This document shows, piece by piece, positions 1,455 through 14,252 of a DNA stretch of 20,187 nucleotides; position 1 is the first letter of the stretch, and every line of letters begins with the position of its first letter. The notes under the pieces were generated by a model, which was not told the origin of the DNA, did not search any database, and saw only the letters and a program-made list of their open reading frames with translations. A program made the translations under genes and the position numbers. The DNA comes from a virus: positions 1 to 20,187 of the IMG/VR virus record IMGVR_UViG_3300021959_000538. The stretch is one strand, 5' to 3'.

Positions 1455-2119
1455 CCGTTTCTGGTTCTAAAAACTTTGAGTTAGACGTCACCGAGTACAT
1501 CGAAGAGGCGTTTGAGCGTTGCGGCAAAGAGGTTCGTACAGGTTACGACATCAAGACCGCTAAACGCTCTATGAACCTGTTGTTTGCTGATTGGGCAAAC
1601 AGGGGGCTTAACTCCTGGACGATAGAGCAGTCCACACAGGCTCTGGTTGCTGGGACGGCAGAATATACGCTTGGGTCAGATACCATAGATATTCTGTCAG
1701 CAGCCGTTCGCCGCGATAACGTGGATTACAACATAGAGCGGTTAAGTCGTGACGATTACCTGGGTGTGCCTAATAAAACCACTCAAGGACGTCCCTCACA
1801 GTGGTTTCTGGACCGTCTAATAAGTCCTGTGTTAAAGCTGTGGCCTGTCCCGGAGAACAGCACAGATGTGATCGTGTTTGATCGTTTGGTCCGAATGGAT
1901 GACGCAGACACGGCTCAGAACACGGTGGAAATGCCGTTTAGATTTTACCCTTGTTTGGCTGCCGGGTTGGCTTACTACATAGCCATTAAGAAGGCTCCGG
2001 ACAGGGTGCAGTTATTGAAAGCTGTGTATGAAGAAGAGATGGAGCGGGCCATCAGTATGGACCGTGACCGGGCTTCCTTTAACATTGTGCCAAGCTTGGC
2101 GTACTCGCAGAACCTGTAA
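1451..2119 (+). CDS. Putative head-tail adaptor / neck protein
   Basis: This is a 222-aa soluble protein whose start overlaps the previous stop as ATGA, with AGAGGAA about 10 nt upstream. The N-terminal half is helical; it carries a Tyr-Ile-Glu-Glu-Ala-Phe segment near residue 16 and a segment around 41-60 (MNLLFADWANRGLNSWTIEQ). I recognise this pattern from a family of marine-phage connector-region proteins that I associate with P22 gp4-type and T7 gp11-type adaptors. Adaptors sit under the portal ring and form the upper tail channel. Adjacency to a second adaptor-like gene (2421-3068) supports the role. The fold assignment is from memory and context, not a search. Confidence 0.72.
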   Translation: MTVSGSKNFELDVTEYIEEAFERCGKEVRTGYDIKTAKRSMNLLFADWANRGLNSWTIEQSTQALVAGTAEYTLGSDTIDILSAAVRRDNVDYNIERLSRDDYLGVPNKTTQGRPSQWFLDRLISPVLKLWPVPENSTDVIVFDRLVRMDDADTAQNTVEMPFRFYPCLAAGLAYYIAIKKAPDRVQLLKAVYEEEMERAISMDRDRASFNIVPSLAYSQNL

Positions 2120-2424
2120 TGGCTAAATTTGCTGTTGGTAAAAATGCCTATGGCATATCAGACAGAAGCGGATTTCGCTACAAGCTAAACGAAATGAAGC
2201 GGGAGTGGAATGGTCTCCTGGTGGGCAAAGATGAGTGGGAAAAGAAACAACCCCAGTTAGAGCCCCGAAGAACCATTACAGACCCGCAGGCTTTGCGTAA
2301 TCCCAGACCGGATCGCGTAGAGCCTATGGACGTTTATGTAGGCTTGCCTACCCCGGATGCCCCCGATTTACGGCCTGTAACCGGATTTGGTCAGGTTGGT
2401 AGCGTGACAGTGGTGATTTCATGA
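2119..2424 (+). CDS. Conserved small neck-region protein ending in GSVTVVIS
   Basis: The product is 101 aa; its start overlaps the previous stop by one base (TAATG). The N-terminus (FAVGKNAYGISDRSGFRYK, residues 4-22, then WNGLLVGKDEW at 30-40) is a pattern I recall as highly conserved in uncultured marine phages, always between neck genes, with no known function. It is polar with several Pro-rich stretches at 45-85 and has no membrane segment. Its last residues (VTGFGQVGSVTVVIS, 87-101) resemble the repeat core of the 451-aa protein at 6727-8082 and the C-terminus of the protein at 13950-14252. A short docking or capping piece of the neck is plausible. Confidence 0.8.
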   Translation: MAKFAVGKNAYGISDRSGFRYKLNEMKREWNGLLVGKDEWEKKQPQLEPRRTITDPQALRNPRPDRVEPMDVYVGLPTPDAPDLRPVTGFGQVGSVTVVIS

Positions 2425-3068
2425 GTTTTACTTATGACGAGTTAAAAACGGCGATACAAGACTACACTCAGAATTCTGAAACCAGTTTTGTAAATAACCT
2501 GCCTGTTTTTATTCGCGTGGCTGAAGAGCGTATCTTAAAGAACGTTCAGCTTACGCTTTTTCGTAAGAATGCCAGCGGAACCACCACAGCAAGTAACCAG
2601 TATTTAGCGGCACCTAGTGATTTTTTGGCTCCGTTTTCTTTATCGTTTACCACGGGTGGGGATAAAACGTTTTTAGACTACAAAGACGTTAACTTTGTGC
2701 AAACCTACAACCCAGATCCAACGGACACAGGCGCACCAAGGTATTACGCTTTTTTTGACGACTCCAACTTTTTGCTCGGACCCACGCCCGATGCAAATTA
2801 CGACGTGGAGTTGCACTACTTTTATCGCCCAACAAGTTTGACTGCGGGGGCAGGAAGCGGAACTACCTGGCTAAGTGAAAACGCTGAAATAGCCTTGTTA
2901 TACGGGTCTTTGATAGAGGCGTACACTTACATGAAAGGTGAGCCGGACATGATGCAAGAATATGAAAAACGGTTTGCTGAAAGTGTGGTTGCTATGAAGA
3001 ACTTTGGTGAGGCCAAAGAAGTCACCGACGCATATCGAACAGGTTTGGTTATTAGAGATAAGGCATGA
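2421..3068 (+). CDS. Putative phage adaptor protein (SU10-adaptor-like)
   Basis: This is a 215-aa protein overlapping the previous gene by 4 nt (ATGA). The order of elements is: an N-terminal helix (YDELKTAIQDYTQN), a helix with FIRVAEERILKNVQL near 30-44, a beta-rich middle with YLAAPSDFLAPFSL near 60-73, a PRYYAFFDDSNFLLGPTPD strand pair near 108-126, and C-terminal helices containing LLYGSLIEAYTYMKGEPDMMQEYEKRF (about 157-183). This is the arrangement of the podovirus adaptor family typified by phage SU10, whose members form a ring between portal and nozzle. The length is ordinary for the family. It closes the first neck block; the nozzle-like partner is about 9 kb downstream. Confidence 0.8.
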   Translation: MSFTYDELKTAIQDYTQNSETSFVNNLPVFIRVAEERILKNVQLTLFRKNASGTTTASNQYLAAPSDFLAPFSLSFTTGGDKTFLDYKDVNFVQTYNPDPTDTGAPRYYAFFDDSNFLLGPTPDANYDVELHYFYRPTSLTAGAGSGTTWLSENAEIALLYGSLIEAYTYMKGEPDMMQEYEKRFAESVVAMKNFGEAKEVTDAYRTGLVIRDKA

Positions 3069-3161: not shown

Positions 3162-3596
3162 ATGGCTATTACACAGGCTATGGCAACATCATTCAAAGTC
3201 GATATCCTTGACGGGACTTTTGACTTTAGCAGCGGCACATCACAGGTCTTTAAGCTGGCCTTGTATACGTCGTCAGCTACGCTAGATGCGACTACCACTG
3301 CGTATTCTGCGACTAACGAAGTCTCAGGTACGGGCTACTCTGCTGGCGGCGGTACGTTGACTATCTCAGCGAACCCTGCGTCTAGTGGCACTACGGCGTT
3401 CTTAGACTTCGCAGACCTTACGTTTTCTACCGCAACAATCACTGCCCGTGGTGCGCTTATTTACTTAGCTAACGGCGGCACTAACCCTGCGGTAGCGGTT
3501 CTGGACTTTGGCTCAGATAAAACTTCAACTGCGGGTGACTTTACTATCGTCTTCCCTGCTGCTGATGCGAGCAACGCCATTATTCGTATCGCCTAA
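3162..3596 (+). CDS. Small conserved virion protein, beta-rich
   Basis: This is a 144-aa protein preceded by AGGAAAG about 8 nt before ATG 3162. It is rich in Thr, Ser, Ala and Gly, predicted all-beta, with no signal or membrane segment. Residues 10-66 (SFKVDILDG, FKLALYTSSATLD, EVSGTGYSAGG) follow a pattern I recall as one of the most common small structural proteins of marine tailed phages, usually next to fibre genes. The exact place in the virion is not known to me; a fibre base, collar or decoration protein would fit. It is the first gene after the hairpin gap and may lead the fibre operon. Confidence 0.75.
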   Translation: MAITQAMATSFKVDILDGTFDFSSGTSQVFKLALYTSSATLDATTTAYSATNEVSGTGYSAGGGTLTISANPASSGTTAFLDFADLTFSTATITARGALIYLANGGTNPAVAVLDFGSDKTSTAGDFTIVFPAADASNAIIRIA

Positions 3597-6726: not shown

Positions 6727-8082
6727 ATGCTAGGTTTTGCTCCATTAGCTTCAGCCCCTATAGCGGATGACGCTAATGTTTCTGTCAGCGTAAGCGTATC
6801 TGGCGTTGAGGCCACTGGCCAACTAGGTACTGCTGCGGTCTATGCGGAGGCCATAGTCTCACCTAGTGGTGTCTCCGCCACGGGTGCAACGGGCAGTGTA
6901 GCAGTAACAGCCGATGCAAACGTCTCGGTTACCGGTGTCTCTGCGACAGGTAACACTGGCTCAGTCACGATTGATCTACGCACCCGAGTAAATGCCACGG
7001 GCGTAGAAGGCACTGGAGAAGTCGGCACTCCTGTTGTTAACGCCGATGCCATAGTTAGCGTAACAGGGCTAGAGGCCACAGCTATCCTCGGCAATGTAGT
7101 CGCTGAAGCTGACGGAGCGGTTGAAGTCCTTGGTAATGCGGCTACCGGAGAGATTGGCACTGTCGCCGTAACAGGCGTAGCGATTGTTGCCGTTACTGGG
7201 GTTCAAGGCACTACTGCGCTAGGCACCGCCGCAGTCGAAGCAGATGCCATCGTGCAGGTCACGGGCGTCCAAGGCACCACAGCTTTAGGCACTGCCACAG
7301 CAGAAGCAGGGGCCACGGCAGAGCCTTCTGGAGTAGAGGCCACAGGTGCAGTAGGGTCGGTTGAAGTAACCGGCGTAGCGATTGTTGCTGTCACCGGAGT
7401 GGCGGGTACTACGGCTCTAGGCACCGCCCAGATAGAAGCAGATGCCAATGTATCTGTGACAGGTGTAGAAGCCACTGGCGATATTGGCACTGTTTCGGTA
7501 GAAGCTGATTCCAGTGTTGCTGTTACCGGCGTAGAAGCTACAGCAAGTGTCGGTTCGGTTACTGTAGAAGAAAGCGTTGCTTTCCTTGTCACCGGAGTTC
7601 AGGGTACTACAGCTTTAGGCACCGCCACTGCAACGGGCGAGGCTAATGTCAGTGTCACGGGGGTCGAGGGTACAAGCCAGCTAGGCACAGTAACCCTAAT
7701 AACCAACAACATCATAGATGTTACTGGGGTTCAAGGCACTACGGCACTGGGTACAGCCACCGCAGAAGCGGATGCCAACGTCAATGTTACAGGTGTCCAA
7801 GGCACCACGGCTCTAGGCGAGACCACTGAGACAGGCACGGCTAGGGTCTTCCCGACAGGCGTACAGGCGGTTGGGCAGATAGGAAATGTGTTAGTATGGG
7901 GACGAATTGTCCCAGATCAGAACCCAGATTGGACGAACATAGATAATAGTCAGACACCGGGTTGGACTGAAGTAAATGCAAGCCAGACACCGGGTTGGAC
8001 TGAGGTAGATGACAGCCAAACTCCGGGTTGGACTGAGGAAACCCCGGCACAAACACCGGATTGGACGGAGATTGCAGCATGA
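6727..8082 (+). CDS. Tandem-repeat virion protein: 17 x 22 aa plus 5 x 11 aa
   Basis: The product is 451 aa from ATG 6727. Residues 1-21 are a short leader (MLGFAPLASAPIADD and a VSVS run); similar MLGF starts occur on small phage virion proteins. Residues 22-395 are 17 uninterrupted 22-residue units with no insertion or deletion, consensus V-x-V-T-G-V-x-x-T-x-x-x-G-T-x-x-V-x-A-x-A-x. Pro396 follows, then residues 397-451 are five 11-residue units (SQTPGWTEVDD type). Alternating Val/Thr with Gly turns predicts short beta hairpins, so a beta-solenoid or fibrous stack is likely. No catalytic motif, Cys or membrane segment is visible. Position between two fibre genes suggests a fibre, whisker or collar component. 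Function is unknown. Confidence 0.85.
   Translation: MLGFAPLASAPIADDANVSVSVSVSGVEATGQLGTAAVYAEAIVSPSGVSATGATGSVAVTADANVSVTGVSATGNTGSVTIDLRTRVNATGVEGTGEVGTPVVNADAIVSVTGLEATAILGNVVAEADGAVEVLGNAATGEIGTVAVTGVAIVAVTGVQGTTALGTAAVEADAIVQVTGVQGTTALGTATAEAGATAEPSGVEATGAVGSVEVTGVAIVAVTGVAGTTALGTAQIEADANVSVTGVEATGDIGTVSVEADSSVAVTGVEATASVGSVTVEESVAFLVTGVQGTTALGTATATGEANVSVTGVEGTSQLGTVTLITNNIIDVTGVQGTTALGTATAEADANVNVTGVQGTTALGETTETGTARVFPTGVQAVGQIGNVLVWGRIVPDQNPDWTNIDNSQTPGWTEVNASQTPGWTEVDDSQTPGWTEETPAQTPDWTEIAA
6790..7911 (+). repeat. Tandem array of 17 units of 66 nt
   Basis: Each unit encodes 22 residues. Units 7, 8, 10, 13, 15 and 16 carry GTTALG; most others carry ATG-x-x-G. The 17-nt string from 7174-7190 recurs at 7372-7388, an offset of 198 nt or exactly three units, which points to a multi-unit duplication within the array. 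Being in frame, coding and diverged, it is a protein repeat and not a CRISPR. Confidence 0.9.
7915..8079 (+). repeat. Tandem array of 5 units of 33 nt (QTPxWTE)
   Basis: Five 11-residue units end the repeat protein. Each has Gln-x-Pro-Asp/Gly-Trp-Thr. The three central units share nearly identical DNA around cagacaccgggttggactga, which suggests recent expansion. The last unit also contains the GGAG ribosome site of the next gene. Confidence 0.9.
8067..8070 (+). promoter_or_regulatory. Shine-Dalgarno site inside the last 11-aa repeat
   Basis: GGAG lies 8 nt before ATG 8079 and within the Trp-Thr-Glu-Ile codons of the final repeat. It favours ATG 8079 over an in-frame TTG at 8061. Confidence 0.6.
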
Positions 8083-8291
8083 AAACGGTAAATGAAGCGG
8101 TAGATTTAGGTGAAACGATTGACCCTAAGCATGAAATTGAGATTGTCTGCGGCAATTGCGGTTACGATCTCGATGAGTCTGAACTTGAAGCAGATACCTG
8201 CTCTGATTGTGGACAGGCTTTGAATCTTAAACAAAGCACCAAGATTTATGCTACCTCGGTGCCTCCGGCAGCGGGCGATGCGGCATTATAG
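8079..8291 (+). CDS. Zinc-ribbon miniprotein
   Basis: The product is 70 aa; its start overlaps the previous stop as ATGA. Cys24-x-x-Cys27 and Cys41-x-x-Cys44, separated by 13 residues and each followed by Gly, form a small zinc-ribbon knuckle pair. The N-terminus is acidic and helical and the C-terminus is polar with Pro-Pro-Ala-Ala. There is no basic surface of the kind expected for DNA binding, so a protein-binding or fold-stabilising role in fibre assembly is one guess. It lies between the repeat protein and the second fibre, 10 nt from the latter's start. Zinc-ribbon miniproteins inside fibre cassettes are unusual in my experience. Function unknown. Confidence 0.8.
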   Translation: MKTVNEAVDLGETIDPKHEIEIVCGNCGYDLDESELEADTCSDCGQALNLKQSTKIYATSVPPAAGDAAL

Positions 8292-8301
8292 AGGCTGACA
8301 A

Positions 8302-9531
8302 ATGGCTACTTATGTAAACAACTTACGGCTCAAGGAAATCGCCACAGGCGATGAAGACGGCACCTGGGGAACCAGTACCAACACCAACCTTGAGCTAATC
8401 GGTGAAGCTCTGGGGTACAACACTCAGGACGGGTTTGCTACAGATGCTGATGCGACCACTACGGTGGCAGATGGCGCGGCTGACCCAGCCCGTGCGCTGT
8501 ATTTTAAGGTGACATCTAGTGCGACTCTTACAGCGACTAGAACGCTGACTATTGGGCCAAACACCGTCTCTCGTGTTATGTGGATTGAAAACGCTACTAC
8601 AGGCAGTCAGTCCATTAACATCTCACAAGGCTCTGGCGCTAACGTCACTATTGCTACGGGTAAGACTAAAGTAGTCTACCTAGACGGTGCTGGTGCAACG
8701 GCGGCGGTTGTTGACGCCTTAGCTCTAATAGAAAGTGTAACTGACGGTGATGTGATTGGGCCGGGCAGTTCAACCAACAACAACTTTACTGCGTTTGATG
8801 GCACTACAGGTAAGCTAATTAAAGACAGCGGTAAAGCCACGCCAACGGGTGATGTGGTAGGAACGTCAGATACACAAACTCTGACAAACAAGACCCTTAC
8901 CAGCCCAACCCTAACTACTCCAGACATAGGTACTCCGAGTGCTGGAACTCTTACTAATGCCACTGGACTGCCTCTTTCTACTGGTGTAACTGGCACACTT
9001 CCTGTTGCTAACGGCGGTACAGGGATTACTTCGTTTGGTTCAGGTGTCGCTACTTGGTTAGGCACACCCTCTTCTGCAAATCTAGCCTCTGCGGTAACAG
9101 ATGAAACAGGCTCTGGGGCGTTGGTTTTTGGTACTAGCCCAACCCTAACGACTCCTGTTCTTGGCACTCCGACAAGCGGGGATTTATCCAATTGTACAGC
9201 GGATGGAACTAATTCTGTGGGTACAAGCAATGTGTCTGCTGTCGGGACTAAAACAAGTAGTTATACTCTCGCCACGGGTGATGTAGGCAAATATGTTCAG
9301 GTAGGTACGGGTGGTTCTATTACGATTCCTGATGCTACCTTTAGCGAAGGAGACGCCGTTAGTATTTTTAATAACACCACAGGAAACATTACAATAACCT
9401 GTAGTATCACCACTGCGTATATTTCTGGAATAGACACCGACCAAGCCTCTGTTACCCTATCGACAAGGGGTGTTGCGACAATACTTTTTATTTCTGGAAC
9501 TGTTTGCGTAATTACTGGTAGCGTAGCTTAA
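8302..9531 (+). CDS. Second tail fibre protein
   Basis: The product is 409 aa, with AGAGG 7 nt before ATG 8302. Residues 1-120 hold the N-terminal anchor type I recall from marine phage fibres ([32 protein letters not shown], then [15 protein letters not shown]). The shaft contains [30 protein letters not shown] and a second [16 protein letters not shown] block, all widespread in phage fibre shafts. The C-terminal domain (about 312-409) begins [17 protein letters not shown] and is beta-rich, likely the receptor-facing tip. No enzymatic motif is visible. It differs from the 931-aa fibre in both anchor and tip, so the virion may carry two fibre types or one composite fibre. Confidence 0.88.
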
Positions 9532-11558: not shown

Positions 11559-12028
11559 TGGCAGCGGAGATCATAGCAGCAGTACAGATGTGTGCCTCGG
11601 CCTACCGCTTTATGAAAACGGCGGTGAATGAGGGCCGGGAGCTGAGTGACATGACCAGAGCTTTAGGTAAGTTCTGGGATGCCCGAGAAGAGGTTAGTGT
11701 ACTAGAGCAGAAAGCCACGAACCCCAGCAAGATAGAAAAGCTGTTTGGTGGCAAGTCTGTTGAGAGTCAGGCTCTGGAGATAACGCTTCAGAAACAGAAG
11801 GCAGAACAGTTAGAGAAAGAACTAAAGGATTTATTCTATTGGACGGGTAATGCAAATCTCTGGCATGACATGCTCAGAGAGCGCACTAAGATACGGAATA
11901 TGCGTATAGCTCAAGCCAGAGAAAAAGCGCAGTCCAGAGCGGCAATGATTGATATAGTAGTAATAGTAGGCACTTTTACGGTTCTTTTTGTTATAGGCAT
12001 GGCGATTACTAGCGTAGCGGTAGAATAA
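11558..12028 (+). CDS. Helical protein with C-terminal membrane anchor
   Basis: The product is 156 aa from GTG 11558, which overlaps the preceding TAG. Residues 1-130 are mostly helical and charged, with coiled-coil-like stretches at about 70-92 and 105-128. Residues 131-153 are a clear transmembrane helix (IDIVVIVGTFTVLFVIGM). The tail is therefore inserted in the inner membrane or a virion-delivered membrane. I recall the family (MCASAYRFMKTAVNEG start and SVES-x-ALEI middle) from marine phages without known function. With the preceding small hydrophobic protein it may form an envelope-acting pair; an i-spanin-like role is unlikely because the membrane segment is C-terminal, not N-terminal. 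Confidence 0.78.
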   Translation: MAAEIIAAVQMCASAYRFMKTAVNEGRELSDMTRALGKFWDAREEVSVLEQKATNPSKIEKLFGGKSVESQALEITLQKQKAEQLEKELKDLFYWTGNANLWHDMLRERTKIRNMRIAQAREKAQSRAAMIDIVVIVGTFTVLFVIGMAITSVAVE

Positions 12029-13950
12029 TGGCTCTTACAAAATTACAGTTTCGCCCAGGAGTAAACAAAGAAACCACCTCGTACAGCAACGAAGGTGGGT
12101 GGTTTGACTCGGATAAAGTTCGGTTTCGTTTTGGCTTTCCAGAAAAATTGGGTGGTTGGACGCGCCGCTCGGACTACAGTTTCCTACAGCCTTGCCGCGC
12201 TCTTCACTCCTATGTCACCCTGGCAGGCACCTCTCAGATAGGCATTGGTACGCGGTACAAGTTTTACATCGACGAAGGCGGATTTCCTTACGATGTGACC
12301 CCGATCCGAGTTACGACAGGGGCTGGCGACGTCACATTTTCCGCGACCAACGGCTCATCGACTATCACGGCAACGGACACGGCCCACGGCGCAGTTACTG
12401 GGGACTTTGTCACTTTTAGCGGTGCTGTCAGCTTGGGCGGTCAGATTACGGCAAACGTGCTTAATCAAGAGTACCAAATAGACGTAACTGACGAGAATAC
12501 CTACACTTTTACCGCCAGGACAGCGGGCACCTCTGTTCAAGATATTACGGAAAACGGTGTTTTAAACCCTGTTGAAGTCAACGCAGATGGGTCAGACACA
12601 GGTAATGGCGGTTCCAGTGTTGTTGGCACTTATCAAATTAACGCTGGTCTAGGCGTAGTAGTGACCGGAACTGGTTGGGGCGCAAGCACCTGGGGCCGCG
12701 GCACATGGGGTTCCGCATCAACCAGCACGGTGACTAACACCTTACGTCTGTGGGGCGTAGATAACCTGGGCGAAGACCTTCTATTCAACGTCAGAGATGG
12801 CGGCATTTTTTATTGGGATACCAGTGCCGACCAGTTGGGTACAGATCGTGCCACAGCTTTATCTTCTTTGCTTGGAGCAGATGCCACGACACCGACCATA
12901 GCCAAACAGGTCCTCGTCAGCGACAACGACCGCCACGTCATAGCTTTTGGGTGCGATCCAGAAAATAATATTGGTGTTCAGGACCCACTATTGATTCGCT
13001 TTAGCGACCAGGAGTCGATAACGACCTGGAAGACCGAGGTGACCAACACCGCAGGCGACATACGCTTGGGTTCAGGGTCAGAGATTGTGGCTGCGGTGGA
13101 GACCCGTAACCAAATCCTGATATTTACCGACATATCATTGCATAGTATGCAGTTTCTGGGTCCGCCGTTTACATTTGGTGTGGCTCAGATAGCCGAAAAC
13201 ACCACCATTGCAGGCCCCAATGCGGCTATAGCCGTGGATGACACGGTTTACTGGATGGGTAACGGAGACTTTTACGTCTATTCTGGCCAGACCCAGAAGA
13301 TGCCCTGCACGGTCCGGTCCTACGTCTTTAACAACATGAACACCAGCCAGATGAATCTGGTGACCTGCTCGCTGAACAGCACTTTTTCAGAGGTGTGGTG
13401 GTTTTATCCATCCACTAACTCTAACGAAAACGACAGCTACGTTATCTTCAACTACCTTGAGAACAACTGGGCCATAGGCACTTTGGCTCGCACCGCTTGG
13501 CAGGACAGCGGCTTGCTGCGTAACCCGCTGGGTGCGTCGCCTGACGGCTACCTGTATTTTCACGAAGATGGCATCAACGACGGCAGCACCAACCCGCCCA
13601 GCGCCATCACCAGTTATGTGGAAAGCAGCCAGTTGAGCATTGGCGAAGGCAATAATTTCGTATTCTTGAGCCGTCTGATACCGGATTTGACCTTTGACAA
13701 CTCCGTATCTGACGCTCCGGTGGTGAATTTTACGCTACAGACCCGTAATTTTCCTGGCGGGAACTATTTGCAGTCAAACCAGTCCGCAGTGACACAGTCT
13801 GCCACGACGCCGGTTGAGCTGTTTACCGATCAAGCGTTCGTTCGATTACGGGGCAGGTCTTTTGCGGTTAAGGTAGAATCTGACACGACTGATGTACAAT
13901 GGAAGCTAGGCACACCGAGGGTTGACGCACGGGCTGACGGGAGACGCTAG
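12028..13950 (+). CDS. Tail nozzle / P22 gp10-like protein
   Basis: The product is 640 aa; its start overlaps the previous stop by one base. The N-terminus (LQFRPGVNKETTSYSNEGGW at 6-25, then VRFRFGFPEKLGGW at 31-44) is the pattern I associate with the tail-hub or nozzle proteins of P22-like and marine podoviruses (packaged-DNA-stabilising gp10 type). The body is beta-rich, and the segments YWDTSADQLGTDR, ISLHSMQFLGPPFTFG and YWMGNGDFYVYSG have the repeated WxG/YxG blades of a beta-propeller. An Ig-like insertion may lie at about 95-200 (VTFSATNGSSTITATDTAHG). It would cap the adaptor ring and form the distal tail tube. Confidence 0.83.
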   Translation: MALTKLQFRPGVNKETTSYSNEGGWFDSDKVRFRFGFPEKLGGWTRRSDYSFLQPCRALHSYVTLAGTSQIGIGTRYKFYIDEGGFPYDVTPIRVTTGAGDVTFSATNGSSTITATDTAHGAVTGDFVTFSGAVSLGGQITANVLNQEYQIDVTDENTYTFTARTAGTSVQDITENGVLNPVEVNADGSDTGNGGSSVVGTYQINAGLGVVVTGTGWGASTWGRGTWGSASTSTVTNTLRLWGVDNLGEDLLFNVRDGGIFYWDTSADQLGTDRATALSSLLGADATTPTIAKQVLVSDNDRHVIAFGCDPENNIGVQDPLLIRFSDQESITTWKTEVTNTAGDIRLGSGSEIVAAVETRNQILIFTDISLHSMQFLGPPFTFGVAQIAENTTIAGPNAAIAVDDTVYWMGNGDFYVYSGQTQKMPCTVRSYVFNNMNTSQMNLVTCSLNSTFSEVWWFYPSTNSNENDSYVIFNYLENNWAIGTLARTAWQDSGLLRNPLGASPDGYLYFHEDGINDGSTNPPSAITSYVESSQLSIGEGNNFVFLSRLIPDLTFDNSVSDAPVVNFTLQTRNFPGGNYLQSNQSAVTQSATTPVELFTDQAFVRLRGRSFAVKVESDTTDVQWKLGTPRVDARADGRR

Positions 13951-14252
13951 TGTCCACGAGACAGGTTACACGGGTCTATTTCCCGAACCCGCCAGAACAG
14001 TACACGCAACGCAGTTTAGCGGCTGTACAGCAGGCTTACGAGCAGTTGGTCCGTCAGTTACAGAACCCTGGGGACGAGCGTTTGACCAATCTGACGCTGA
14101 CCGCCCTGCAATCGGGCAGTGATCAGGGCCTTGCGCCGGGGGACGTGTACGAAAAAGACGGTTTTTTGAAAGTAGCTTTAGCGGATAAGCCCAACGTGGC
14201 GGGTGTTTTAGGCACCACGGCCCTGGGCTCAGTGACTGTGGTCATAACTTGA
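13950..14252 (+). CDS. Small nozzle-partner protein ending in a repeat-like GSVTVVIT
   Basis: The product is 100 aa from GTG 13950, which overlaps the nozzle stop by one base. Residues 1-45 (RQVTRVYFPNPPEQYTQ, helix, NPGDERLTNLTL) and 60-85 are a pattern I recall immediately after the nozzle-like gene in marine phages. The last 17 residues (VAGVLGTTALGSVTVVI) match the 22-aa repeat core of the protein at 6727-8082 (VTGVQGTTALGTATAEA). The neck protein at 2119-2424 ends with the same GSVTVVI. It is probably a small tail-tip or nozzle-closing component. No membrane segment or Cys. Confidence 0.82.
   Translation: MSTRQVTRVYFPNPPEQYTQRSLAAVQQAYEQLVRQLQNPGDERLTNLTLTALQSGSDQGLAPGDVYEKDGFLKVALADKPNVAGVLGTTALGSVTVVIT

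Follow-up and report, generated by a model that had tools for sequence, protein, structure and literature searches.

What kind of protein is built almost entirely from one short unit repeated in perfect register, and what would it do in a phage? The question is raised by a reading frame, here called REP, which lies inside the tail and fibre gene block of a 20,187-nucleotide stretch of viral DNA (hereafter the window; Table 1). Residues 22-395 of REP consist of 17 units, each of exactly 22 aa and free of indels, and a sequence-only reading that had proposed this division has been confirmed by the self-identity of 0.446 at lag 22, compared with a maximum of 0.212 in 2000 shuffles over all lags from 5 to 59; further peaks occur at lags 44 and 66. 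Every one of the 17 units has G5 and G13, T9 is missing from a single one (16/17), and valine is strongly preferred at positions 1, 3 and 6. The mean identity between pairs of units is 51% at the nucleotide and 45% at the amino-acid level, and dN/dS against four relatives of full or near-full length (L002, L004, L006 and L009) is 0.14-0.18. The array is a protein-level feature, and its units are old and under purifying selection. A satellite or recombination array at the DNA level has been rejected, as TRF detects no array across the units (its sole detection in the gene is a 33-nt repeat in the tail) and synonymous divergence is strong.

Table 1. Features of the window that bear on REP and its module.
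Feature	Coordinates	Strand	Basis
h2119, small adaptor-region protein with C-terminus FGQVGSVTVVIS (REP half-unit)	2119..2424	+	CRP-902 homologue bears whole array
SU10-type head-tail adaptor	2421..3068	+	PF24175, E 7e-25
phrog_644 protein, conserved upstream neighbour of REP	3162..3596	+	PHROG match; 91/107 loci
Tail-fibre protein, gene flanked by phrog_644 and REP in the window's phage group	3615..6410	+	tail-fibre PHROGs, E 6e-34
REP, 451-aa repeat protein	6727..8082	+	ORF; 17 x 22 aa; family of at least 566 viral loci
REP N-cap, residues 1-21, MLGFAPLASAPIADDANVSVS	6727..6789	+	family comparison; alternative GWGxGxWGxxxWG in other members
17 tandem 22-aa units, residues 22-395	6790..7911	+	G5/G13 invariant; register kept in family; beta prediction
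REP C-cap VWGRIVPDQNPDW and about five 11-aa W repeats	7894..8079	+	W-repeat number differs among relatives
Zinc-ribbon protein, 70 aa, two CxxC pairs	8079..8291	+	weak zinc-ribbon Pfam matches; ATG overlaps REP stop (ATGA)
Fibre-like GTWGTxTNxNLxLI protein downstream of REP	8302..9531	+	phrog_31104, E 3e-10; HTVC023P gp69 of same type
P22-gp10/nozzle-like 'stabilization' protein with GWGASTWGRGTWG module (alternative REP N-cap)	12028..13950	+	phrog_3287, E 1e-68; PDB nozzle matches
100-aa protein, C-terminus a REP unit (half or whole), VAGVLGTTALGSVTVVIT	13950..14252	+	unit HMM

The array is framed by two distinct ends, for which the sequence-only reading had described a 21-aa leader and an 11-aa repeat tail. 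The leader exists, yet only about 15 of its residues are unrelated to the array since 'ANVSVS' can already be read as the final part of a unit; the tail has indeed been found to carry 11-aa repeats ('SQTPGWTEVDD'), although it extends over 56 residues with about five of them. Among the relatives the N-cap is of two kinds, either 'LGFxPLASAPIAD' or 'GWGxGxWGxxxWG', and the members of MW202675 and HTVC023P have the type xxGFxPLSxAPF in common. The C-cap reads 'VWGxIVPDQN' and is followed by a variable count of 11-aa W repeats, which within the loci compared are confined to REP proteins. A Pfam match to 'Spt5 CTD' (E 9.5e-4, below the cut-off) has been discarded, as it covers the W tail only and reflects compositional resemblance.

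REP belongs to a very common, unnamed family of marine and some freshwater phages, cultured Pelagibacter phages included. A conserved-motif scan of IMG/VR has returned at least 566 confirmed related loci, whereas profile and sequence searches of Pfam, PHROG, NCBIfam and PDB have given no meaningful match. The proposal that no described family has this architecture therefore holds for these databases, but unnamed homologues are widespread: tblastn finds relatives in the phages DSL-LC04 (WJZ48131.1), HTVC023P (gp68, QGZ17697.1) and MW202675 (UOF80312.1), HTVC027P gp68 (QGZ17849.1) has been recognised by its gene position and its several GWG modules, and further ones occur in UniProt/BFVD. The four phage proteins, all annotated as hypothetical, share the repeats, the N-cap or GWG modules and the neighbourhood with REP, from which they differ in having fewer and more diverged units; UOF80312.1 moreover ends in a 'WNGSAWVxKP' motif, not in QTPxW repeats. 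No near relative of the window has been found in the phage records searched, and the plasmid search has returned no relatives of REP. Scans of genome contigs for a bacterial REP have given none in the first round and a single phage contig (L219) in the second, which had been binned in a Verrucomicrobiales MAG and shows the gene order of the REP loci. By eye, this contig also bears two oxygenase-like ORFs and one halogenase-like ORF. The open-licence papers searched have yielded no description of the repeat, and as far as these searches reach, neither the family nor the occurrence of its module in other proteins has been described.

The layout of the family is constant (N-cap, n x 22 aa, C-cap, W repeats), while the number of units per member varies from 4 to 34 by span, with a median of about 12. 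Across 113 proteins, 932 of the 1084 spacings between units (86%) equal a whole-number multiple of 22, so that the register, which had been argued to matter, is kept across the family; the absence of indels, true for REP of the window, is not absolute among its relatives. The commonest deviating spacings are 20 and 24, which would preserve the alternation of strand residues pointing in and out. One relative, L003, is about 99% identical to REP over the common part and exactly four units shorter, which may be a true contraction or an assembly collapse, as whole-unit differences among metagenome contigs can be. All family traits are found in REP of the window, namely the G5/G13 register, both caps and the place after phrog_644 within the adaptor-fibre block.

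Regular beta structure rather than disorder throughout, as the sequence-only reading had anticipated, is predicted both for REP and for a construct of eight in-register units. In the AlphaFold model of full-length REP (pLDDT 58, pTM 0.46) every unit contains short strands, and pLDDT falls below 50 only at the ends, N-cap and tail being predicted with very low confidence; the eight-unit construct (36 aligned segments) reaches a pLDDT of 74.7 and a pTM of 0.71 with two strands per 22 residues, values that mark a moderate model confidence and come from a program that can over-regularise repeats. The conservation of the unit would fit a rung in which the odd positions from 13 to 3 and the even positions from 6 to 12 point inward and the invariant glycines occupy the two turns. 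The composition, rich in G, A, V and T, and the low pLDDT of N-cap and tail would also be expected of a linker or surface coat that is low in complexity and largely disordered, with a periodicity that stems from recent duplication and not from a fold. This we regard as improbable, since units as old as their 51% nucleotide identity indicates have kept G5, G13, T9 and the alternating valines in register under a low dN/dS, and since strands are predicted in every one of them.

Comparison of the REP model with PDB by Foldseek has given no significant match. The non-significant neighbours are mostly solenoids (LpxD, GlmU, CsgA, FapC and ice-binding proteins), and in BFVD the matches are uncharacterised phage proteins (best E 1.5e-8). 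The left-handed beta-helix and RTX or S-layer solenoids among the top neighbours (LpxA, GlmU, RsaA; E 0.04 or worse) differ from REP in repeat length and motif. The curli subunits CsgA and CsgB have 22-residue, two-strand stacking repeats, and if the solenoid model of REP is right, these proteins would also work somewhat alike. Some pelagiphages that carry type VIII secretion genes have been described as exporting curli-type proteins (PMC9599517), and with its 22-aa strand-turn-strand units and the CsgA fibril among its fold neighbours, REP might be taken for a secreted amyloid, an analogue of CsgA/B exported by infected cells. We disfavour this origin as highly improbable, as the unit consensus is devoid of the curlin N/Q ladder, Pfam reports no curlin match, REP sits in a virion gene block, and CsgG has been found in 0/10 REP-bearing phage records, several of them near 60 kb and with controls detected, the window itself being a 20-kb fragment.

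The neighbourhood of REP is conserved. Most relatives with enough flanking sequence share the order tail adaptor, h2119, SU10-type adaptor, phrog_644, in some cases a fibre gene, REP, zinc ribbon and 'GTWGTxTN' fibre, and the REP relatives of DSL-LC04, HTVC023P, HTVC027P and MW202675 are similarly placed among tail genes. The phrog_644 protein occurs in 91/107 REP loci, the SU10-type adaptor in 85/107 and a downstream fibre-like protein in 62/107, counts that describe the neighbours of REP and not the share of phages with REP, since the loci were fetched for holding it. The linkage to fibre genes, from which a fibre had been suggested for the window, extends as a constant association with head-tail adaptor and fibre genes across the REP loci. 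The zinc-ribbon gene lies directly 3' of REP in 41 of 74 relatives and shows the exact ATGA overlap in 24 of the 74 (the copy of the window counted); by this overlap of stop and start the two proteins may be made together, which suggests translational coupling. The fibre gene upstream of REP contains long internal near-duplicates of a 52-aa stretch. Relatives of the phrog_644 protein occur in very different phages, among them Caulobacter giant phages, Gordonia phages and the satellite phage MiniFlayer.

Taken with the register and the predicted strands, this placement leads us to consider REP, with a probability of roughly 60%, a structural protein of a podovirus-like particle that forms a long adhesive fibre or shaft, built like a beta-solenoid, at the head-tail or tail region. 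We infer its presence in the virion, its attachment site, the solenoid as against another beta stack, and the binding of a receptor or surface. One 22-aa unit would form one rung of the stack, with small and hydrophobic side chains turned inward along the long alternating stretch G13-V15-V17-A19-A21-V1-V3-G5 and likewise along the short one from V6 to L12. The length of the fibre would be fixed by the number of units and change in whole units, while attachment, binding or both would fall to the N-cap and the W-rich C-cap, which are conserved. Some members may have acquired a lectin domain between rungs, directed to sugars of the host surface. That REP contains no other domain is true for the window and fails as a rule of the family: in the 828-aa homologue L095:4586-7069, the one homologue with such an insertion, a LamG_3 lectin-type domain (residues 545-679, E 8.6e-15) lies between units, and this insert favours an adhesive fibre. 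A further homologue (L025:2956-4740) bears about 300 aa extra at its C-terminus, in which Pfam and PHROG have given no match. The family is encoded at the point where attachment to the host and delivery of the genome are settled. If REP is the adhesive fibre, the family could help to account for the way in which abundant ocean phages recognise their hosts; it is testable now in the cultured phages HTVC023P, HTVC027P and CRP-902.

The unit is not restricted to REP, a recurrence that the sequence-only reading missed. Searches with the 22-aa unit profile also pick out the extreme C-termini of other proteins of the virion region. That of h2119 includes VGSVTVVIS, part of a REP unit, and the terminal unit of the 100-aa protein, which may also be given as GTTALGSVTVVIT, is matched by the unit HMM with E 0.007 in the window and 2.6e-5 in its L010 homologue. 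The half-unit '[VLIFC]Gx[VAILTE]xV' stands within the last 11 residues of 54/66 proteins of the h2119 family compared with 6/1794 other ORFs of at least 100 aa, a contrast that is descriptive because the pattern was drawn up from these very ends; four of the six are relatives of the 100-aa protein. The h2119 homologue of Roseobacter phage CRP-902, gp53 (L109:4452-5378), adjoins the tail adaptor and bears roughly eight units in array together with a GWG module; the annotation of that phage shows no separate REP gene from phrog_644 to the nozzle region. Such fusions of h2119 with an array are also present in about 30 related environmental loci (L181-L212). Outside REP, the GWG N-cap module has been found in the loci compared in nozzle proteins only, that of the window included, and in L041:7877-9992 and L106:11622-13706 the nozzle or stabilization gene is broken up into two neighbouring ORFs, and REP-type units lie where it is divided.

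This distribution gives rise to the main rival of the adhesive fibre, in which REP would be a non-adhesive sleeve, spacer or stabiliser round the adaptor and nozzle, its repeats packing on virion proteins and not reaching the host. The units at the ends of h2119 and of the 100-aa protein, the CRP-902 fusion and the units in nozzle genes all place the module on connector and nozzle proteins, and the phrog_644 and adaptor neighbourhood points the same way; the wide range of unit numbers, the lectin insert and the adjoining fibre genes are, however, more typical of an exposed fibre, and we hold a sleeve to be unlikely. A more speculative proposal, which we put forward with considerable doubt, is that the 22-aa unit serves as a docking or assembly module, the half-units at the ends of h2119 and the 100-aa protein and those of the nozzle gene lending edge strands which would cap or nucleate the REP stack and thereby continue one beta-solenoid across several tail proteins. 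If so, phages could exchange fibres, fuse them as in CRP-902 or lengthen them by adding rungs, which would be a new way of assembling and diversifying phage tails.

Fibres of repetitive beta structure are already known from phage tails, and REP as an adhesive fibre would be of this kind. P22 tailspike and T4 gp5 and gp12 are beta-helical, and in tail modules repetitive beta rungs form the exposed shaft. REP differs from these tailspikes and fibres in that it has neither a sequence match nor a significant fold match to them, and we know of no beta-helical tailspike or fibre for which both a perfect short repeat and the occurrence of its module in h2119 and nozzle genes have been described. The virion block of the window also encodes, at 1029-1454, a 141-aa protein that is very rich in Lys and Ala, resembles histone H1-like tails and could be a packaged DNA-binding protein.
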